Positions 167 through 38,381 of a stretch of 38,381 bases of DNA are shown piece after piece. Where the stretch lies: positions 1 through 38,381 of IMG/VR virus record IMGVR_UViG_3300006917_000015, one strand, 5' to 3'. The notes beneath the pieces are model-generated. The model searched no databases, had not been told where the DNA came from, and saw nothing but the letters and a program-made list of their open reading frames with translations. The DNA is from a virus. The translations under genes were made by a program, and so were the position numbers. The first letter of the stretch is position 1; the number at the start of each line of letters is the position of its first letter.

Positions 167-194
167 AGCCCGGCCTAACCCGCCGGGCTTTTTT
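167..194 (+). terminator. Intrinsic terminator acting on rightward transcripts
   Basis: An 8-bp perfect stem (AGCCCGGC / GCCGGGCT) with a 7-nt loop is followed on the plus strand by a run of six T. On the minus strand the hairpin is not followed by T, so leftward polA-to-primase transcripts should read through it. No plus-strand gene lies just upstream. In the circle, the nearest rightward genes end at about 36126, and everything between is antisense to primase. Confidence 0.65.
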
Positions 195-2151
195 ATTTAC
201 CGTATTGCTCCATCACCTTGACTTCGGCGTTGAGCGGAAAGCCTTGCGCCCATTCGGGCGCAGTGCACATGCCCTCGTGTAATCGTTCGGCTACAAACTC
301 GGCTGCCTCGTTCGCACATTCAATAACGATTTCGTCGTGCACGTGCAGCACCACTTTAAGCCCTTCACGATCCAGTTGCCTCAAACTATGGCGCAGCAAA
401 TCATTGGCCGTCGCTTGGGTGATGTTCTCGCACGCAAGCCCCTTCCATAACCTTGCGCGCGGCCATTCTTTGGCGTCCTGTGCAGGCTTCCATGCTGCCT
501 TCAGATACGTCACGCCCTCTTCTTCCAAGCGGGCGAACGGATAACATAGAACGCGACCCGACGGCAGGCAATACCAAAGATGTTGGCCGTCAAACATATA
601 CACCACGCGGCCAGCACGAAACTCCGTGTTGACATTTCGCATGGCGCGGGTGTAGGCGTCCTCCAGCTTCTGCCAGTAGCGCACCGCCCACGGGTTGGCA
701 CGACGCCAACGATCCACGATGCGCTGCGCCTCGTGTTCGGTCATGTGCACGCCGTAAGCGCGGCCCATGGCGCTAAACGCACCGATACCGCCCGCGAAGC
801 CAAGGCTCAGGATGGCGACCTTGCCGATCTGGCGCTGATCACCCGTCACCGCCTCGGGTGTGGTGTTGTAGATGCCGGCGGCTTCACGCTTGTAGATGTC
901 ACCGCCCGCGCGGAACACATCCAGCACTTGCTCGGCGAGCGGGTCGGCAGAGAGCCAAGGCGTGGCGCGGGCTTCTATCGCTGCCCAGTCGGCCACGACG
1001 AGAACGTGACCTCGGGCGGGTACAAGGGCGGGGCGCAGCATTGACTTAAGAACGTCTGTAATGCGTTTGCCGAATCGGGGCACGACACTGTGACCGCGTA
1101 CCAAGGCTTGACGAGCTGCTTGTGGCTCATCGCAACATTTACGCGTAAAGTTATGGACTTGTGCTCCGTAGCTTGAAGCACGTCCGGTGGCACTTCCACC
1201 AGCAAATACAAAGGCTCCCCGGACACGGCCATCCTCCACGTCAGCTAACTGCTTCAGCCGACTGAACTTAGCCACCGACGAGGCCCAAAGGTCATCCGCG
1301 CACTGGATGACCTCGGCCACATCGGGCGGCACTTCGTCGGGGTTGTCCATGGCGAGCAGGTTGGCCCGCACGGTCTTGTCAATACTAAACTTTTTATCGC
1401 CGTCTTTGTATACCGTCATCAGCTTCTTGGCCTCGGGGCCGACTCGCTCCAGCACCCACTCGCGCATCTTGGGGCTGCGGACGGTAAGGATTATTCCTTT
1501 CGTCACCTCGGCGACGGTCTGTTCAATGTCCTGCAATTCAGATTCCGCGTAGCGGATCGCCGCCTCACAGAGCGGCACATCGACGCCGACACCACGGTCG
1601 TTGATGCGCTCGTTGACGTGGTAGTCCGCGAGCTCCGTCTCGGATAGGTCGCGCATCGCCTTGCTGATCTCGCGCATGGCGCGCACGTCCTGCTCGCAGT
1701 AGGCGACCATCTCGGCCATCAGCTCGGGATCGTTGCTGAACGTACCGTCAGGCCGTGGGATCGAGAGCTGGCGGATTAACTGCGCGCCGCGATGGTCTTT
1801 CTTCATCTTGGATGAGAGCGCACGGCCGATGTCCTCAAGGCTGCCAGGTAGGCAGTTAGCCCGCGCCTGCGCCGCCGTGCAGTAGAACTGCTCCAGCAGA
1901 TGGTTCGTCTGGCAGACATACCAAAGGATCAGCCGCTCAAACGCAGCGTTATGCGCGCGGATCTGTCCTTTGAAGTTAGCCACGCGCTCAGGGAACGGAT
2001 GCTTCGGCAGCCACGTCACGACGGGCTCGTCGTCAAACGCATAGGACATGCAGAGCACCTCAGTGCTCATGTCTTGCGCGTAGTTGTAGACGCCCTGCGT
2101 CTTCAGATCGCAGCGGCTGCGCGTTTCAAAGTCTAGCCAAAGGATTGCCAT
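193..2151 (-). CDS. polA: Family A DNA polymerase with 3'-5' exonuclease domain
   Basis: Replicative DNA polymerase of about 652 aa. The N-terminal exonuclease shows LDFET (Asp7, Glu9) and a YCEQDV motif. The polymerase domain has motif A (VVADWAAIEA, near residue 390), motif B (RQIGKVAILSLGFAGG, near 440) and motif C (HVHDEIVIE, near 605). The start at 2151 (MAILWLDFET) is preferred over an in-frame ATG 18 codons upstream, because the exonuclease motif begins at once, as in the family. It overlaps the upstream methyltransferase-like gene by 19 bases, so it is translated as part of that operon. Motif B has Phe where Tyr is usual at the position of E. coli Tyr766. It is shorter than bacterial Pol I and lacks a 5' nuclease domain, which is typical of phage enzymes. 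Confidence 0.95.
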   Translation of the reverse strand: MAILWLDFETRSRCDLKTQGVYNYAQDMSTEVLCMSYAFDDEPVVTWLPKHPFPERVANFKGQIRAHNAAFERLILWYVCQTNHLLEQFYCTAAQARANCLPGSLEDIGRALSSKMKKDHRGAQLIRQLSIPRPDGTFSNDPELMAEMVAYCEQDVRAMREISKAMRDLSETELADYHVNERINDRGVGVDVPLCEAAIRYAESELQDIEQTVAEVTKGIILTVRSPKMREWVLERVGPEAKKLMTVYKDGDKKFSIDKTVRANLLAMDNPDEVPPDVAEVIQCADDLWASSVAKFSRLKQLADVEDGRVRGAFVFAGGSATGRASSYGAQVHNFTRKCCDEPQAARQALVRGHSVVPRFGKRITDVLKSMLRPALVPARGHVLVVADWAAIEARATPWLSADPLAEQVLDVFRAGGDIYKREAAGIYNTTPEAVTGDQRQIGKVAILSLGFAGGIGAFSAMGRAYGVHMTEHEAQRIVDRWRRANPWAVRYWQKLEDAYTRAMRNVNTEFRAGRVVYMFDGQHLWYCLPSGRVLCYPFARLEEEGVTYLKAAWKPAQDAKEWPRARLWKGLACENITQATANDLLRHSLRQLDREGLKVVLHVHDEIVIECANEAAEFVAERLHEGMCTAPEWAQGFPLNAEVKVMEQYGK

Positions 2152-2723
2152 TGTTCTGCCATCGCCTCTGCAATTCCAGTGTAGGTTACGCTGCGTAGTT
2201 TCCATCTGTCAGCAGACGGCGGCAGCTTATTTTGTCCGCTTGCGGTTTGGTTTGCGCGTCTCGCTTCACGGCCGCCAGGTAGCACATCTGTCGGGATTAG
2301 CAGCGGCAGGTTTTTTAGCCATAAACACGTCGCTTTAGACGCGTCATGCCCAAACTGCCACGGCTGAATGATCTGATCTGGTTTACGTACACGAGACGAG
2401 ATGCACCCAATCGGATTCTCTAATGCAATATGCGGGATCGGCGCGTTAAGAAGCGTATGCACAAACAGCAGCGCTTCTTCGGTTTTCTTCGCTCGACCCG
2501 GCACACGCTTGTTCCAATGCAGTCCGCTTGACGCCAGATACGTGCAAGGCGGATGCGCGATCATCAGATCCCATCCGTCATCCATAATATCCAGCACGTT
2601 GCCTTGATAGTGCGGCCCCGGCGCTTCCGTAGGCAACAGATCGCATGACATGGCGTCATGCCCGCGCTTGCGGAACGCATCCCGAACCGCACCAGAGAAT
2701 TCACACGCTATGAGTACACGCAT
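2133..2723 (-). CDS. Small cytosine-C5-methyltransferase-like protein
   Basis: The 196-aa protein begins MRVLIACEFSGAVRDAF, a SAM-binding type strand-loop of the C5-methyltransferase kind. It carries HPPC at residues 57-60 and ALENP near 101-105, corresponding to the catalytic PC loop and a degenerate ENV motif. It is much shorter than a normal Dcm and has no evident target-recognition domain. Whether it methylates phage DNA cannot be told. Similar stand-alone proteins are common in phages with this replication set. The start at 2723 is chosen because the methyltransferase-like homology begins there. No good Shine-Dalgarno sequence is visible, and a GC-rich hairpin sits just upstream. A longer frame extends to 3047 but only shadows the upstream gene. 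Confidence 0.7.
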   Translation of the reverse strand: MRVLIACEFSGAVRDAFRKRGHDAMSCDLLPTEAPGPHYQGNVLDIMDDGWDLMIAHPPCTYLASSGLHWNKRVPGRAKKTEEALLFVHTLLNAPIPHIALENPIGCISSRVRKPDQIIQPWQFGHDASKATCLWLKNLPLLIPTDVLPGGREARRANQTASGQNKLPPSADRWKLRSVTYTGIAEAMAEQWQSFG

Positions 2724-6404: not shown

Positions 6405-7442
6405 GTAGTCCGCCCCTTCCTCGGGATCCCACCACACCTTGACGAGATCAGGGTGCTCTGGCGGCAACTCGGGGTTGATGGTCGTGACCGCACAGGGCGA
6501 CAGCGCGTTGTCGCGGAAGCCCTTGTCCTTCGCAAAGCGGTCATAGACCTTGTAGCTGGCGACCTTGCAGGCGTGCATCGTTATGCCAGATATTGCATCT
6601 TTGAGCACGCTGTACGCGCTCTCGTGCTTATGACCTGCGACGTAGATGTGATCGCGCGTGCCCATGAGCGCCGCCTTCATCGGCCCGTGCGCCGGATTCC
6701 AGATCGACGAGCCGGCGTGGTCGTGGCGTGCGTTCACACGCACCTCGCGCCCGTTCGGAAAGCGCAAGGCGATGCGGGCCTCGGAGGACTTGTACAACGC
6801 GCTTTGCTGTTTTGCGATCCATTTGAGCGGGTCTCCGGCACCTGACCACAGGTCGTGGTTGCCGCCAATCATGTAGATCCAATCGCAGCGGTTGACAAAC
6901 CACTCTGCGATCTTCCAAGCCTGCGCCGCTGACGTACTCTGGTCGGCGTAAAGCCTTGCTAAACGGCCGCACCAGTTGTTGGTGGTGTCACCGACGTTAG
7001 CCGCGAAGAGCCCTTCGGTCTTGTTGACGAGCGCCGTGTGCTGCTCGATAGCCTCAATGTCGCAGCCGTCGTCGTCAACGTGCGGGTCGCCAAAGTGCAG
7101 GATGCCGATGGCACCTGACAACTTGATCCGTATCGGGATCAGTTTGCTGGCTTCTTCATGCTCGCGCTTGTGCGCGAACTTGCGCTTGCGCTGCTCAATC
7201 AGCTCTTCAATCGGCACGTCATCATCTGGCAGCGGGGTGAACTCAAACCCGGCGTGCTCAGAGACCTGCCGCCCAGGTACGTAGGTTGACTCGGGGATCG
7301 TGTACCCCTTGGCCTTCATCTTCTTTAGCCGCATGAGAACGCTGCGCTCGTTGAGCCCGAGTTTCTCTGCTGCTGCGATGCGGATGCCGTTACATTCTTG
7401 TAGTGTTTTTAAGATTACTTCATCAGTTGCCTTAGCCTTCAT
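6375..7442 (-). CDS. Metallophosphoesterase with N-terminal helix-turn-helix
   Basis: 355 aa. The calcineurin-type core shows FGDPHVD (Asp119, His121), NVGDTTN (Asp152), IGGNHDLW (Asn195, His196), ARHDHAG (His240/His242) and AGHKHES (His271/His273), a complete di-metal site. Residues 1-45 (EVILKTLQECNGIRIAAAEKLG followed by LNERSVLMRLKKMKAK) look like a Fis-type helix-turn-helix. The combination suggests a DNA-directed phosphatase or nuclease, but the substrate is unknown. Standard start with GGAG six bases upstream of the ATG at 7442, close behind the metallopeptidase gene. It is the last gene of the late operon and is convergent with the rightward operon. Confidence 0.85.
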   Translation of the reverse strand: MKAKATDEVILKTLQECNGIRIAAAEKLGLNERSVLMRLKKMKAKGYTIPESTYVPGRQVSEHAGFEFTPLPDDDVPIEELIEQRKRKFAHKREHEEASKLIPIRIKLSGAIGILHFGDPHVDDDGCDIEAIEQHTALVNKTEGLFAANVGDTTNNWCGRLARLYADQSTSAAQAWKIAEWFVNRCDWIYMIGGNHDLWSGAGDPLKWIAKQQSALYKSSEARIALRFPNGREVRVNARHDHAGSSIWNPAHGPMKAALMGTRDHIYVAGHKHESAYSVLKDAISGITMHACKVASYKVYDRFAKDKGFRDNALSPCAVTTINPELPPEHPDLVKVWWDPEEGADYLRFLRSRSK

Positions 7443-28989: not shown

Positions 28990-30515
28990 TAGGCACCCAT
29001 CCAACTGTTTGTCACCGCGTTGCCTTGCGACATGCGTAGCGTGCGCGGCTTCTCCCGATACTCCCGTCCTGCGACCGGATACGCGAACGTCACTGCGAGT
29101 GCGTCCGCCGCATCGGGTGAGGCCAACCCTCTAGCTTTCATATCCTTCTTGCTCTCTAGCAAGATCGCCCCGGCCGAGTTGAACTTTTGATGCGGGCCAC
29201 AGATGTCGGACTTGAGCGCCCGATCCTGCGGCAAAGCAGCCGTTTTGAGCCACTCACGCATGTCGCCCCACATCTCGGAGCGTTTGTTCTGATACATCGC
29301 CGGGTTCTTCGACTTCCAGCCAAAGTTTACCCCACGAACCTTATACCGCTGCTCTTTCAGCCGGTCAAGTACGCCGTAGCCAAGCCCACCCTCGTCGATG
29401 ACCGTGAGCGCCGGTTGGTACTCTTCTATCGCGTCGATGACGCGTCCGACCGTCTCCATCGTGTCTTCGCCTTGGTAGCGTTTAATCGCAACAATATCTC
29501 GTCCTTGTCGAACAACGATGACCGTACTGTCAGCTCCGCCTCGCGCTGGATCGACTCCGATAATGCGTGGCGCGCTCTCGTCCTTGTACCGTGGCCGGCC
29601 CATAGCCTCCTCCACAATTCGCGGACTAATGAACTGGTCGTCGCCGTCCGAAGGAAACTCTCCGTACACCTCCACTCGCGCTTGGGTGCTGTCGGCGCCG
29701 TACTCGGCGATGATCTGCTCGTAGACGGCTTTGTCCGTGTCCTCGACTTGCCGCGCGTCGATGTTTTGCGTTTTCCAGAAGGCTCGTTTGCCGTTGAAGC
29801 ACTCATAGAAGTACCCCTCATTGCGTCGTGGGTTGCTAAACGCACACCAAAAGCGGTTCGGCGTGTTCTCCGTAAAGAACCCCGCCGTCACCGACCAGAT
29901 CGGGTCAGGTATACCCGACGCCTCGTCGAAGATCACCATTACGCCATCGTGGTTGTGCACGCCCGCGTACGCGTCTGGGTTCTCCTCGCTCCAGAGCCGC
30001 CCCTCCACCGACCAGTAGCGCGTACCTTTCTTCAGGTCTCGCTCCACCAGCTCCGCGAGCCACTTAGCCGGCATGACGCGCGTGGCTGACACCTCGAACC
30101 AATGGCTGTTGATCAGCAGCGCCAGCCACTTAGTCACCTCGGCCCAGGTGACCGACCGCAACTGCGCTTCCGAGTTAGCCGACACAATGGTCGTGGAACC
30201 AATTCTAGTTGATAACATCCATAGAATTAGCCAAGAAACCAAAGCAGACTTACCGATACCACGACCGGAGGCGGTCGCCATGCGCATGACCTCATACGCA
30301 GAGGCCGTCTTGTTTTTGGCAATGTGCGCCGCGAGATCCCGCAGCACCTTGCGCTGCCACTTGCGCGGCCCGTGGAAGTGCTCCAGCGGCGTGTCCTTCT
30401 GCCCCCACGGGAACGCGAACAGCACGAACGCCTCCGGGTCGTCCTTGATGGCGGGCGTCCACAGCTGCGCCATGAGGCGCTGCTCGTCCTCGGCGCTATA
30501 GATCGGTAGTTGCAT
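28989..30515 (-). CDS. terL: Terminase large subunit
   Basis: 508 aa packaging motor and nuclease. Walker A is SGRGIGKS (83-90). Walker B is VMVIFDEAS (192-200) with catalytic Glu198. The RNase H-like nuclease has Asp322 (IIGVDPARGGADST), Asp374 (LTVIDEGGLGYG) and the late SPDAADALAVTF. It overlaps the small subunit by 20 bases. It cuts and pumps phage DNA through the portal. Complete motifs show an intact enzyme. Confidence 0.95.
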   Translation of the reverse strand: MQLPIYSAEDEQRLMAQLWTPAIKDDPEAFVLFAFPWGQKDTPLEHFHGPRKWQRKVLRDLAAHIAKNKTASAYEVMRMATASGRGIGKSALVSWLILWMLSTRIGSTTIVSANSEAQLRSVTWAEVTKWLALLINSHWFEVSATRVMPAKWLAELVERDLKKGTRYWSVEGRLWSEENPDAYAGVHNHDGVMVIFDEASGIPDPIWSVTAGFFTENTPNRFWCAFSNPRRNEGYFYECFNGKRAFWKTQNIDARQVEDTDKAVYEQIIAEYGADSTQARVEVYGEFPSDGDDQFISPRIVEEAMGRPRYKDESAPRIIGVDPARGGADSTVIVVRQGRDIVAIKRYQGEDTMETVGRVIDAIEEYQPALTVIDEGGLGYGVLDRLKEQRYKVRGVNFGWKSKNPAMYQNKRSEMWGDMREWLKTAALPQDRALKSDICGPHQKFNSAGAILLESKKDMKARGLASPDAADALAVTFAYPVAGREYREKPRTLRMSQGNAVTNSWMGA

Positions 30516-30969
30516 ATTCTGCCATCGGCGCGGATGCCGCGCGGGTGGGGGCGTGGGTCAGTGCAGCCGGTGTATCCGACAGTGCTCGGCCCTCGATAAC
30601 GCGAGCGTTCGCCTCTTGCAGCGCCGCGGTGATGCTAATCTGCTGCTGGATGTCCACCTGCACCTGCTGCTTGGCGACCCAGCCATGCACGTGCTGGAGT
30701 ATGGCAAGAGAAGCCTTTGTATCGCCATTGCGAGCCGCAAGACGCAGTTGGTTCGCGGCCTCAGATTCACTATCTGCACGACCCTTGGCCTCCGCCATCG
30801 CTGCCAGAGGATCCATCTGGCATAGCCGCCTGTATTCGGTGGGCAGCATCCCCGCTGCCAAGGCAAGACTATCACCCTTCAACCCGAGCGCGGCGGCGTC
30901 ATAAATCGCCTGAAGGCGCGCTTCGGTGGCCTTGATCTCACGAGGCTCAAACGGGAGCGATTTGAACAT
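30496..30969 (-). CDS. terS: Terminase small subunit (putative)
   Basis: 157 aa. The N-terminal half (ATEARLQAIYDAAALGLKGD then SLALAAGMLPTEYRRLCQMD) forms a helix-turn-helix-like DNA-binding module. A central helix (AANQLRLAARNGDTKASLAI) and a Gln-rich segment (AKQQVQVDIQQQISITAALQ) would form the oligomer, with a disordered Ala/Pro tail. This layout matches small terminase proteins that recognise the packaging site, often located within their own gene. First gene of the late operon. No good Shine-Dalgarno sequence precedes the ATG at 30969. Confidence 0.7.
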   Translation of the reverse strand: MFKSLPFEPREIKATEARLQAIYDAAALGLKGDSLALAAGMLPTEYRRLCQMDPLAAMAEAKGRADSESEAANQLRLAARNGDTKASLAILQHVHGWVAKQQVQVDIQQQISITAALQEANARVIEGRALSDTPAALTHAPTRAASAPMAEYATTDL

Positions 30970-31162
30970 GCGTCAACAGTACCGTGCGCGTAAGGAAATG
31001 GCAAGCGGTGTGCAGGATCCCCTGCCGGGAGGCCGCGATCCACAACATCCGTGTGGCCTGTGTGCCGGGGCGGAGTGCCTTAGGTATGCAGCACTATTGT
31101 GCCTTCAGCTTCCTCCCGGTCGCTACCAGCGCACCTGGTCAGACACCGCGACGAAAGGTTAG
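30968..31162 (+). CDS. Possible small Cys-containing protein, divergent from terS
   Basis: 64 codons, MRQQYRARKEMASGVQDPLP then CGLCAGAECLRYAALLCLQL. GGAG stands ten bases before the ATG, and the start codon overlaps the terS start on the other strand. The C-x2-C-x4-C spacing could bind a metal, but no family is known to me. It would lie before the operator-rich region. It may be chance coding. Confidence 0.3.
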   Translation: MRQQYRARKEMASGVQDPLPGGRDPQHPCGLCAGAECLRYAALLCLQLPPGRYQRTWSDTATKG

Positions 31163-31168
31163 CAAAGA

Positions 31169-31201
31169 ATCCTTTAGCAAGGCAACACGCTAATAAAGGA
31201 T
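31169..31201. repeat. 8-bp inverted repeat
   Basis: ATCCTTTA (31169-31176) and TAAAGGAT (31194-31201) are perfect inverted arms 17 bp apart. They could form a hairpin or bind a dimeric regulator next to the tandem operators. Confidence 0.5.
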
Positions 31202-31205
31202 ACGG

Positions 31206-31245
31206 CTGTAAGCAATGGGCTACAACTGTAAGCAATGGGCTTACG
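31206..31245. promoter_or_regulatory. Two tandem operator-like inverted repeats, 20-bp period
   Basis: CTGTAAGCAATGGGCT occurs at 31206-31221 and 31226-31241. The second copy extends to GTAAGC-AATGG-GCTTAC (31228-31244), a perfect 6+6 inverted repeat. The first copy is the same with one arm slightly degenerate. The 20-bp period is about two helical turns, so two dimers would bind the same DNA face, as at repressor operators. TACGGCTGT flanks both sides (31201-31209 and 31242-31250). Confidence 0.6.
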
Positions 31246-31362
31246 GCTGTTTGCTGAAAAAATAAAAAATTTTTTGTGGCCCCATCGTAACAGTGACCTG
31301 TCGCCTCCATGACCCTCCCCCCCATGCTCTCAGCAAACGAGCCGTCAGCATGCAAGCGTAAC

Positions 31363-31393
31363 GTTATAACGTAACAGCTAGTCGGCGTGTCGA
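31363..31393 (-). promoter_or_regulatory. Possible leftward late promoter overlapping a palindrome
   Basis: Minus strand TCGACA (31393-31388), a 19-bp spacer and TATAAC (31368-31363). The -10 lies inside the perfect palindrome ACGTTATAACGT (31361-31372). It faces terS about 400 bp downstream. The spacing is longer than optimal, so it would be weak without an activator. Confidence 0.3.
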
Positions 31394-31425
31394 GCTGCCA
31401 GCCGATCGCATCCAGGCTTGTGGGC

Positions 31426-31762
31426 GTTGGGCAATTTGGGCAATGCCCAAGCAAGTCGGTTTTGAACCATGCGGCCGTCAGCCGTTGGGCAATTTGGGCA
31501 ACCAAAAGCAAATAGCCCAAAATGCCCAATGGCGGGCGTTGGGCAATTTGGGCATGACCCACCAGCATCGCTGCCGGCCGAGGATTTCACTGTCAAATTA
31601 CGCTTGTGAAATTTCACAGCCTAAAAATAGAATTTCCACCTTTAGCAGACAACCATGACCCAAATTGCCCAAGACTCTCAATTCGGCCTGCACTTTCAAT
31701 TAGTTAGCGGTGGGCAATTCTCCCCAAAAACATGACCCAACGCATGACCCAAATTGCCCAAC
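31426..31762. repeat. Iteron-like 17-bp repeat family (candidate replication origin)
   Basis: Consensus GTTGGGCAATTTGGGCA. Exact copies are at 31426-31442, 31484-31500 and 31538-31554 (plus orientation). Inverted near copies are at 31746-31762, 31657-31673 and 31514-31530 (the last matches 14 of 17). A weaker direct copy is at 31709-31725. Plus-oriented exact copies fill the left half and inverted ones the right half. Each unit contains GGGCAATTTGGG with an AATT core. The repeats are non-coding and adjacent to the early promoter, which resembles iteron origins bound by an initiator protein. Confidence 0.75.
31605..31618. promoter_or_regulatory. 14-bp perfect palindrome, operator-like
   Basis: TGTGAAATTTCACA is fully symmetric. 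A third TTTCAC half-site lies at 31585-31590. It resembles a CRP half-site pair, but the arms are only 4 bp apart and not 6, so CRP binding is not expected. It lies between the direct and inverted halves of the iteron family. Confidence 0.5.
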
Positions 31763-31810: not shown

Positions 31811-31839
31811 TTGACAGACTATTCGGCCGCATTTAATCT
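31811..31839 (+). promoter_or_regulatory. Sigma70-type promoter of the rightward early operon
   Basis: TTGACA (31811-31816), a 17-bp spacer and TAATCT (31834-31839), 33 bp before the ATG at 31873. Its spacer contains CTATTCGGCCG, shared with the leftward replication promoter at 4566-4594, displaced by one base. It lies immediately after the iteron array. Confidence 0.75.
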
Positions 31840-32260: not shown

Positions 32261-32962
32261 ATGCAATACTCACTCACTATCTCTCTCGCCACCTTGCGCG
32301 CCGCCCGTACTCATTCGGCCGAAAAAGACTTGCGCACCTATTTGTGCGGCGTCTATCTTGACACGCAGCGCGGTAAGGTAGTCGCCACTGACGGCCACCG
32401 GATGCTAGTCGCCAATGCGCGCGGCGTTATGTATCCGACGGGCGCCGCCGTCATCATCCCGAATGACTTACTTGACGCAGCGCTAAAGCAATTCACGGGC
32501 GACTACGCACGCGGCAAGTCATTAGGCGCTGCGGACGTGTTGATCACGGTAGACGGCGCGCAAAATACCCTGACGATCAAGACGCCATCCGGCCAGGTGC
32601 AAGGCCAGCCACTTTCAGGCCAATTCCCTGAGTGGCGCCGTGTTGTGCCCAAAGGCGATGAAGTGACGACGACGGCACCAGCCGTGATCAACTGGCAATA
32701 CGTCACCGATGCGTGCGACGCCATCACCATTGCGCGCAATGTGCCGAAGTCCAAGGCAGGCCAGCACCCTGTGCGTGTCCACCAGCGCGGCGAGTTTCCG
32801 TCGGTCATCTGCGACACCGACGCGGATATCGTCGTCATCGTCATGCCACTGCGCAACGATATGAGCGCCGAAGCGCCGCGCAATGCGTGTGGCATGGCGC
32901 ACCTAGATGCGCTGCCGTACAGCGATGAGACGCGCGAGACCGTCGCCGCCGAAGCTGCCTAA
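32261..32962 (+). CDS. Beta sliding-clamp-like protein (DNA polymerase III beta type)
   Basis: 233 aa, about two thirds of a bacterial beta clamp (366 aa). The phage clamp-like motif RTYLCGVYLDTQRGKVVATD followed by GHRMLVANA is clear, with PNDLLDAALKQF and the FPEWRRVVPKG element seen in beta-clamp domains (the bacterial FPDYRRVLP region). It probably encircles DNA as an oligomer and could act as a processivity factor, or bind host polymerase. The partner polymerase (phage PolA or host Pol III) is not known. AAAGGA nine bases before the ATG. Confidence 0.75.
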   Translation: MQYSLTISLATLRAARTHSAEKDLRTYLCGVYLDTQRGKVVATDGHRMLVANARGVMYPTGAAVIIPNDLLDAALKQFTGDYARGKSLGAADVLITVDGAQNTLTIKTPSGQVQGQPLSGQFPEWRRVVPKGDEVTTTAPAVINWQYVTDACDAITIARNVPKSKAGQHPVRVHQRGEFPSVICDTDADIVVIVMPLRNDMSAEAPRNACGMAHLDALPYSDETRETVAAEAA

Positions 32963-36101: not shown

Positions 36102-36126
36102 GTGGCTATTCTCCGACAACGGATAG
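36058..36126 (+). CDS. Possible 22-residue membrane peptide
   Basis: GTG at 36058 with AAGG nine bases upstream encodes (M)TYLLLTIVGAILVEWLFSD and two more residues, a single hydrophobic helix. Its leader (ACTAAAGGCCAATAAAC) resembles that of the gene at 33053. It overlaps the 3' end of the convergent primase gene by 21 bases. Very small, so tentative. Confidence 0.3.
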   Translation: MTYLLLTIVGAILVEWLFSDNG

Positions 36127-38381
36127 CGCGGGCTCTGCACCCTCGGCCATCCGGCGAAGCTCCGACTTCGACAGGTTCGCAAACTGCGGGTGAGCGAATA
36201 TGTGCTTCTTGGTCGGGTACTCTTTTGAGTGCAACCGGCCAACATCCACCCAGCCCGCATCGCGCAGCGCGTGCATGAGCGCAGCAGGGACAACCTTGAC
36301 GCCAGAGGGCGCCATACCCTGCAAGCGATCACAAATCTGATAGAAGGGCGAGGCGATCACGCCGCGCGAGAAGTCGCCCTGACGCTGACGGATCATCTCG
36401 ACTAGGAACGACTCGGCCGTGCTCATCGCCGATTCGATCATAATGGCCTTCGCTTCGGTCATCGGCGGCGCGGCGCCTGGGTTGAACTTGGACACGTCAC
36501 GCGCATCCAGCCAAGCCGCTACAGCCTCAAAGCCGCCGTTGTGATACCAGTGCCAGAGCGCTTGCGCGTCGAAGGGCGGCAGACGATCTGCGTCTGACCA
36601 CACGACGAACCAGCGGCGGTCATCTGACGGTAGGCTGATAGCGGCGCGCTCGTTACTGAACGACACCACGAGCACGCGGTTCAGCGCCTCGTATGGGTGC
36701 AAGCCCTTGCGGTTGACCGTGAGCAGCTCAGGCGGCGCGGCAATGATGGGCTTGAGGCTATTCTCCAGCGCTCGGCGGTCTTTAGCCTCGGCTTGGCGCA
36801 ACTCGTTGATGACGATGACCTCGGACTCCAGCGCGTAACCCCACTGCGAGTTCAATTCTTCGTTGCGTACGGTCGTGACGTTGACGCGCTGATCGCCACC
36901 GATAGACCAAAAGAACGGCGCCCAGAGCGTGTCCTTACCGCTGCCGGGCTTGCCCGCGTGCAGCACCGCATGGTTGATCTTTTGGTTGGCATGCTGACGT
37001 TTGTAGGCCATCACGTCAAAGACGTGCTCGCGCTCGGCCTCGTCTGGGATCATCCGCTCGGCATGTTGTAGCCACATGGATACGTCACCGCCCGTGACGG
37101 CAGGGCGCGCATCGCGCCAGCGGTTGCCGTACACGAGCCCGTTACGGCTGACGAGAATGGACTCGCCAGCGGCGAACGTGACGCCGACCAGCGCCCGTGC
37201 GCCCATCGCCTGACGGTTCTCGTCAAAGCAGACCGACGCCTCAATGCGGCGGTTGTTGTGGATGCTGTGGCAACTGACGTGGCGATACAGCGCGTTGAAG
37301 GTCGAGCGCGAGAGCTCTCGGCGATCTTCCATGTCAAAGTAAGAGTCATCGTTCTGGACGTACGCAAAGCGCTCGTACCACTTTGACTTGTCAATGCGGC
37401 CAAGCTCTCGGCGCTCGACTTGCTTGACGACCTCGCTGGCTTCGTCTGGGTACTCGGCGGTCGGTGTGATCTTGCTCAAGGCGGCCTCCATCTTCTTTGC
37501 CAGCAGGTCGTCCCGCAGGCCATAGCCCGTCTTGGGGCCACCCTCGGCTTCCACCCACCGAAGGAACCGCTCGCTGTCCCACTCACCACAATGGCCGTGG
37601 AAGCACTTATAGCTACGGGAAACGGGATTGTACCGCCCGCCGGGGTCGTTCGTCGTGTGCTCGGCATGGTTGGGGCAGACCACCCCGTACCAACCCTCGC
37701 CGTTGGCCTTATCCAACAGCAACCCTCGGGCTTGGATCCACTCCAAAACGGTGTCAAGACCGTCGTCCTGAAGATATACGCCGCGTATATACGCCGTATC
37801 GACAGGGCCAGGGGTGACGCCAAGCGCTTTAACGATCTGCGTTAAAGTGAACTCGCGCTCAGGGTGGAACTCCACCAGAACGGACTCGAAATTATCGCGC
37901 CCTTCCTTCAGATTGACGCTGCCGGGGATGCGGAAGTTACGCACCGGATTCACCGCACCGGGGTCGGTGAATCCTGCCTCGGCGATGGCCTTAATCGCGG
38001 CGCTGAACTCGCCCTTCAGCGGCTGATCGTCAAGGCCGAAGGTGTAGCCCCACTGGTAATTGCCGGGGCTAGTCTCGATCTTCCACGTCGGCTCCAGCGG
38101 CGGGACTTTGGACTTCGTGCCCACGTCATCCAGCACCAAGAACGCCACCCGCTCGCAGTTAGCGGCAGAGGCCGACAGGCCGTCGGTGAAGCGCTCGACG
38201 ATGAAGCAGCCCGTGTTGGCGTACCAGGCACCCTTGCGGGTGAAGTTAGCGCGCTCCGGCAGGAACGGCGGCCATGTATACTTCGGAGTCCCGTCCTTAT
38301 GCAGGAGGGGCTCGCCACCCCGCACAATGGGCTTCTGGCGCACGAACAAAATGGTTTCCCCTTCCGGGGCGATGTTGGTAA
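36106..38381 (-). CDS. Primase-helicase: AEP-type primase, zinc site and SF3/DUF5906 helicase
   Basis: Main part of a protein of about 765 aa whose first residues are encoded at 145-124, across the circular join. The N-terminal RepB/AEP-like primase region has FLVLDDVG (acidic pair near 92-93). A zinc site, CPNHAEHT with CFHGHC, lies near 243-272. The helicase has Walker A AGKPGSGKD (near 484-491), Walker B EVIVINELRQ (near 528-537) and DDRRWFVVW downstream, as in DUF5906/SF3 helicases. It would prime and unwind at the origin. Downstream of polA in the leftward operon. Confidence 0.9.
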   Translation of the reverse strand, partial: TNIAPEGETILFVRQKPIVRGGEPLLHKDGTPKYTWPPFLPERANFTRKGAWYANTGCFIVERFTDGLSASAANCERVAFLVLDDVGTKSKVPPLEPTWKIETSPGNYQWGYTFGLDDQPLKGEFSAAIKAIAEAGFTDPGAVNPVRNFRIPGSVNLKEGRDNFESVLVEFHPEREFTLTQIVKALGVTPGPVDTAYIRGVYLQDDGLDTVLEWIQARGLLLDKANGEGWYGVVCPNHAEHTTNDPGGRYNPVSRSYKCFHGHCGEWDSERFLRWVEAEGGPKTGYGLRDDLLAKKMEAALSKITPTAEYPDEASEVVKQVERRELGRIDKSKWYERFAYVQNDDSYFDMEDRRELSRSTFNALYRHVSCHSIHNNRRIEASVCFDENRQAMGARALVGVTFAAGESILVSRNGLVYGNRWRDARPAVTGGDVSMWLQHAERMIPDEAEREHVFDVMAYKRQHANQKINHAVLHAGKPGSGKDTLWAPFFWSIGGDQRVNVTTVRNEELNSQWGYALESEVIVINELRQAEAKDRRALENSLKPIIAAPPELLTVNRKGLHPYEALNRVLVVSFSNERAAISLPSDDRRWFVVWSDADRLPPFDAQALWHWYHNGGFEAVAAWLDARDVSKFNPGAAPPMTEAKAIMIESAMSTAESFLVEMIRQRQGDFSRGVIASPFYQICDRLQGMAPSGVKVVPAALMHALRDAGWVDVGRLHSKEYPTKKHIFAHPQFANLSKSELRRMAEGAEPALSVVGE
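38259..38381. repeat. Terminal direct repeat, right copy (circular closure)
   Basis: Identical to bases 1-123. The genome unit is therefore 38258 bp. Confidence 0.95.

Follow-up and report, generated by a model that had tools for sequence, protein, structure and literature searches.

The window analysed here is a whole stretch of 38,381 nucleotides, the IMG/VR virus record IMGVR_UViG_3300006917_000015, which encodes a P22-like portal, TerL and tail genes. Between positions 31426 and 31762, it carries an array of short repeats that is very likely an iteron-type replication origin bound by the phage's own primase-helicase. An iteron origin had already been proposed from the sequence alone, and this interpretation is supported by the conserved position and layout of the array in related phages, by the AT-richer spacer that divides it and by covariation between residues of the primase-helicase and bases of the repeat unit.

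The repeat array and its relatives

The elements on which the argument depends are the following:

31426 to 31563, mostly plus strand: left unit set (sets d to g), from a position weight matrix (PWM) scan and exact 17-mers
31564 to 31654, no strand: spacer separating both unit sets, a candidate unwinding region, AT-richer than the window
31605 to 31618, no strand: 14-bp palindrome TGTGAAATTTCACA, midway along the spacer, read from the sequence
31655 to 31762, mostly minus strand: right unit set (sets a to c), from the PWM scan
36106 to 38349, minus strand: primase-helicase of 747 amino acids, the proposed origin-binding initiator, with a DUF5906 SF3-type helicase, an AEP-like N-terminus and a C-terminal winged helix

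Exact copies of the 17-bp sequence GTTGGGCAATTTGGGCA are found on the plus strand at 31426, 31484 and 31538, and inverted near copies at 31514 and 31657 (three mismatches each) and at 31746 (two mismatches). The 38.4-kb window contains no further matches (shuffling yields a mean of 0.11), and these six confirm the three direct and three inverted copies reported by the sequence-only reading; according to a pattern search of the record, all are intergenic and none lies within the initiator gene. The 17-mer has an inner period of nine and is thus composed of two tandem 9-bp units (TTTGGGCAA / TTTGGGTCA in the window), of which approximately 14 were detected within the array by the PWM scan. The left set contains plus-strand units at 31426, 31435, 31461 (weak), 31484, 31493 and 31538 and minus-strand units at 31512-31530 and 31554-31563, and the right set contains minus-strand units at 31655, 31664, 31732, 31744 and 31753 and a single plus-strand unit at 31709-31718. 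The spacer between them is roughly 90 bp long, with 54% AT in 31556-31655 compared with 42% in the whole window. The 14-bp palindrome described in the earlier reading was located there, between the mostly plus left set and the mostly minus right set. The claim that the stretch is non-coding is very probably right, as the two open reading frames (ORFs) that cross it (31080-31568 on the minus strand and 31443-31658 on the plus strand) look like chance frames through the repeats and, in related phages, this interval contains arrays built from other unit sequences.

Through the primase, 80 relatives were found in viral contigs and 8 in metagenome-assembled genomes (MAGs). They form a group of uncultivated, mostly freshwater phages; some of the MAGs were binned as Rhodoferax or other freshwater bacteria, although bins of phage contigs are weak evidence of the host. 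The gene order (polymerase, primase, early genes, interval, terS and terL) is kept among these relatives, and the array lies directly upstream of the small terminase subunit gene, terS, in nearly all of them. Most loci in which the interval is present hold arrays of 9-bp units there, with sequences other than those of the window, such as TGTGGGCAA, TTTGGGTCA, TGTTGGCTA, TGTTGGCAG, TGTGGACAA, TGTAGGCAA and TATTGGCAA. Thus, instead of repeats scattered at random across related genomes, which the sequence-only reading had named as evidence against an origin, arrays are observed in the same interval adjoining terS. Among 50 non-redundant loci, 189 exact 9-bp tandem pairs were counted, against 6 after dinucleotide-preserving shuffling, and such pairs were present in 43 of these loci. 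The initial site search was seeded with the family consensus, and a de novo k-mer search recovers the same arrays.

The layout of the array is constant within a few bases in many clades and recurs in most loci whose interval is intact: three units, one reversed unit and two units precede the spacer, which is followed by two or three reversed, two forward, two reversed and further reversed units. The length of the spacer is tightly kept (median of 106 bp), and its AT content is 0.60 in relatives, compared with 0.52 and 0.43 in the flanks. A different mid-spacer dyad is frequent in these phages (e.g., CTGTATN4ATACAG, TGTAAGGAATTCCTTACA or TTTCATAATGTGAAA).

Some additional variation was observed in these intervals. 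In the spacers of L052, L086, L089, L098 and other loci, the dyad switches among several palindrome types between related phages, and TTGTAAG-like sequences, similar to the spacer dyads, are found at their early promoters. In L093, a run of approximately nine units lies head-to-tail at ~230-300 bp upstream of terS and, therefore, local duplication is suggested as the way in which units spread.

Covariation between the primase-helicase and the repeat unit

In the AlphaFold model of the primase-helicase (mean predicted local distance difference test, pLDDT, of 76; about 71-88 in the winged-helix part), two helices (669-677 and 688-697) and two strands (701-706 and 715-719) make up the predicted C-terminal winged helix. 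Residues 707, 709 and 712 all fall within the loop between the two strands. The best fold match of the model is the C-terminal region of the NrS-1 primase, followed by the SaPI5 primase-helicase (7ola; Z of 17.9 over 290 residues, reaching residue 739), with further matches to the primase-helicases of African swine fever virus and poxviruses and to PriRep1 with double-stranded DNA (dsDNA). The NrS-1 primase was also the sole match in a sequence search of the PDB.

The screen covered 58 loci and approximately 2,070 columns of primase, TerS, polymerase and TerL. Primase residue 709 was the only well-covered column that separated G from non-G at position 2 of the unit, as G was found with Arg709 (Pro in the distant L124) in 45 loci and T or A with Ala, Gly or Lys in the remaining 13, and Lys707 and Asp712 were the only well-covered columns that went with A at position 6. 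No comparable position-2 signal was observed in TerS, polymerase or TerL. Some poorly covered columns also separated unit classes by chance (primase 747; TerS 134, 135 and 138; and single polymerase and TerL columns, for position 4).

These associations were then confronted with 231 newly fetched loci, 113 of which had a callable unit, the frame of the unit being picked blind to positions 2, 4, 6 and 8. Arg709 was accompanied by G in 90 of 92 cases and any other residue by A or T in 21 of 21, and both exceptions (L312 and L317) have an ambiguous unit frame. Concordance was 98/100 after dropping primases at least 97% identical to the first set and 62/64 among loci whose primase is below 85% identity to it. 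In L169, L175, L176 and L179, which combine Ser709 with Lys707/Asp712, the unit is readable as TATGGACAA, in agreement with both rules, although the opposite strand also allows a frame for it, the choice having been made by a preference for GG.

In the 123 dereplicated loci, the labels of residue 709 and position 2 agree in 120, with 12-13 changes along a tree built from residues 1-620. Of the entropy of the position-2 label, 84% is accounted for by residue 709, compared with 49% by the next column, and the observed association was reached by none of 100,000 label simulations on the tree. For position 6, A or T was found in 47 of the 56 loci with Lys707, and G in 66 of the 67 that have another residue. 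An earlier segregation test inside a single clade gave no tracking primase column, which is consistent with these results because the units of the clade in question differ at positions 4 and 7-9 and not at 2 or 6.

The primase-helicase, one of the two binders suggested by the sequence-only reading, thus stands out through the way in which its wing residues covary with the repeat. TerS was rejected as the binder of the array, as no well-covered TerS column separates the unit classes, and a search for an early-operon gene that tracks the unit class found none. A helix-turn-helix gene near the SNF2 helicase in L129 (2210-2545), with weak matches only, varies, but not with the unit class among the few genomes compared; no homologue was detected in the window. 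Proteins with a DnaA domain were discarded too, since they are present only in the distant MW202483.

The array, its layout, its spacer, its proposed binder and the residue-to-base covariation are what the sequence itself carries; from them, we infer that the enzyme binds there physically, that the DNA melts, that the helicase is loaded and that replication initiates at the array. The covariation suggests that the primase-helicase binds the array, in which case the C-terminal winged helix of each subunit would recognise one 9-bp unit. At wing residue 709, which would read position 2, Arg goes with G, and Lys, Gly, Ala or Ser with T or A; residues 707/712 would influence position 6, at which A or T accompanies Lys/Asp and G prevails in the other cases. 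The protein assembled on the two opposed sets might then melt the AT-rich spacer between them, the strands thus exposed would receive the helicase rings, and the first primers for the family A polymerase of the phage would come from the N-terminal primase domain.

Several observations weigh against this reading. The position-6 rule is looser than that of position 2, with about 10 exceptions in the 123 loci. Additionally, unit positions 4, 7, 8 and 9 differ among phages with 97% identical primases, no primase column tracks them and, therefore, either they go unread or a further factor is involved too. Some loci (L045-L048, L088, L095, L123 and others) have no clear tandem array, partly because their contigs end there. 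The array lies ~4.3 kb from the primase gene, whereas the origins of phage satellites adjoin the rep gene (see below). Finally, the GC-skew check proposed in the sequence-only reading did not mark the array, as the detrended minimum was found in different places across nine genomes; the T-A skew points to the array in the nine, but it coincides there with divergent transcription.

Neighbouring genes and competing explanations

The array sits between terS, on the minus strand, and the early operon, on the plus strand. The relevant neighbours are as follows:

30496 to 30969, minus strand: candidate small terminase subunit gene (terS), adjoining the array, named from its position and conservation, with no family match
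31811 to 31839, plus strand: early promoter candidate TTGACA-17-TAATCT, ahead of the early operon, read from the sequence
32261 to 32962, plus strand: sliding-clamp-like protein, a weak match below the Pfam cut-off
193 to 2205, minus strand: family A DNA polymerase, part of the same replication module

It is improbable that the array, bound by the primase-helicase, acts mainly as a control region that represses or switches the divergent early (plus) and late/terminase (minus) promoters, with initiation taking place elsewhere. Its location between divergent transcription units, close to the early promoter candidate, and the operator-like dyads within the spacer are in line with such a role, and covariation tells who binds and not with what consequence. 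However, the proposed binder is a replicative helicase-primase and no typical repressor, the promoter candidate lies ~50 bp outside the array, and the opposed sets with their near-constant AT-rich spacer fit strand opening better than promoter occlusion. The promoter candidate was missed by a consensus scan because its second hexamer is just outside the scan rule.

Two other explanations involve different binders. The position of the array beside terS, together with a conserved G-rich and A/T tract between them, might indicate a packaging region (pac or cosB-like) bound by TerS, the product of the neighbouring gene. This is very doubtful, as TerS is 96-100% identical between phages with different units, no TerS column separates the position-2 classes, the three that separate other classes are in its C-terminal tail, where coverage is poor and one class comprises only 3 loci, and it is the primase wing that does track the units. 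Neither protein tracks positions 4 and 7-9, because units differ there between phages in which TerS shows this near-identity and the primase is 97% identical. The phage DSL-LC05 (OR003940.1), with a TerL 71% identical to that of the window, a family B polymerase and an unrelated primase, lacks the array, and TerS is hardly recognisable there; replication modules are thus exchanged in this phage group, but the pattern fits the primase-helicase and TerS alike and does not separate them as binders. Binding by host DnaA or by a phage protein resembling DnaA domain IV is more doubtful still. Units of some relatives (TGTGGATAA or TGTGGACAA) are exact or near DnaA boxes, and the distant L124 (MW202483.1) encodes a stand-alone DnaA C-terminal domain protein (7083-7379). 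Nevertheless, the window unit TTTGGGCAA / TTTGGGTCA is not a TTATCCACA-like box, the same applies to many others (e.g., TGTTGGCTA and TATAGGTCA), and neither the window nor the close relatives searched showed a DnaA-type domain. In the arrays of L280, L309, L335, L336 and L337, tandem TGTGGATAA at 9-bp spacing is the exact reverse complement of the DnaA box TTATCCACA, and it is possible that these units are doubly used, also by host DnaA.

Other features were observed around the array. Between it and terS, the block at 31245-31330 (G-rich and then an A/T tract in the minus-strand reading), kept in nearly all relatives, could be a DNA unwinding element, a packaging site or a late promoter. Two direct repeats of 20 bp (TACGGCTGTAAGCAATGGGC) occupy 31201-31240, where many relatives have a different repeat type (~22-bp repeats, or AGTTAGTG..CACTAACT palindromes). 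The segment 30985-31170, upstream of terS, is conserved, also in L052, with no Rfam match and folding no better than that of shuffled sequences. The window also encodes an exonuclease and an SNF2-type helicase; no known RNA families or tRNAs were found in it, and a DNA search for the nearest phage records gave no match. Its 123-bp terminal repeat, the basis of the previously assumed 38258-bp circle, looks like an assembler overlap because complete relatives carry exactly 127.

Comparison with known replicons

The origins of phage-inducible chromosomal islands (PICIs) always contain an AT-rich region with an iteron set on either side; according to the authors, this arrangement is known in no other bacterial replicon (PMC6092414). 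In PICIs and the Staphylococcus aureus pathogenicity islands (SaPIs), the initiators (Rep or Pri-Rep; PMC6092414, PMC7581432; 7ola, 7pds) are, as here, primase-helicases of the D5/SF3 kind, or else Rep helicases. Their C-terminal dsDNA-binding domain recognises the iterons and sets iteron specificity; the corresponding winged helix is predicted in the window enzyme, and covariation points to the same role. By contrast, these islands are satellites without capsid genes of their own, whereas the window is a complete P22-type tailed phage. Their origin lies directly downstream of rep, while the array (31.4-31.8 kb) is separated by the early operon from the end of the primase gene (36.1 kb). Tandem pairs or triplets of 9-bp units, a fixed layout and a location beside terS also distinguish the array from the island origins.

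The P4 alpha protein combines a primase, an SF3 helicase and a C-terminal origin-binding domain that acts on short repeats (the ori and crr iterons), to which the window enzyme may be likened by description. P4, however, is a satellite that needs two separate sites, ori and crr, whereas one array was found in this window. Lambda O and P22 gp18 (PMC8022706) resemble the present case in that the initiator is phage-encoded and the iterons differ between related phages, but their iterons lie inside the initiator gene (gene 18 in P22-like phages; PMC8022706) and the helicase is of the DnaB type; here, the repeats are intergenic and the proposed initiator is itself the helicase. Lastly, the C-terminal helicase of the NrS-1 primase-polymerase (6k9c) is the best structural match for the helicase part of the window enzyme, although, unlike here, no linked iteron array is described for it in the cited literature.

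Taken together, the best reading of the array is an iteron origin like those of PICIs and SaPIs, which belongs to a P22-type phage and is bound by the primase-helicase that this phage encodes. No described origin was found for this phage group in the open-access papers searched and, with this reading, a likely origin and a likely initiator are named for a widespread group of uncultivated phages, and tailed-phage replication is linked to the origin design of phage satellites. It is fairly likely, furthermore, that a replicon type so far ascribed to phage satellites alone serves as the usual origin for a large group of free-living P22-type phages, most of them from freshwater, and that it follows a simple wing residue-to-base code (709 for base 2 and 707/712 for base 6). 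This would be a protein-DNA recognition rule found by covariation and then confirmed on new genomes; if true, origin specificity could be predicted from the sequence of the initiator protein, and the wing rule could tell in advance which phages and satellites have an origin in common or compete for one.
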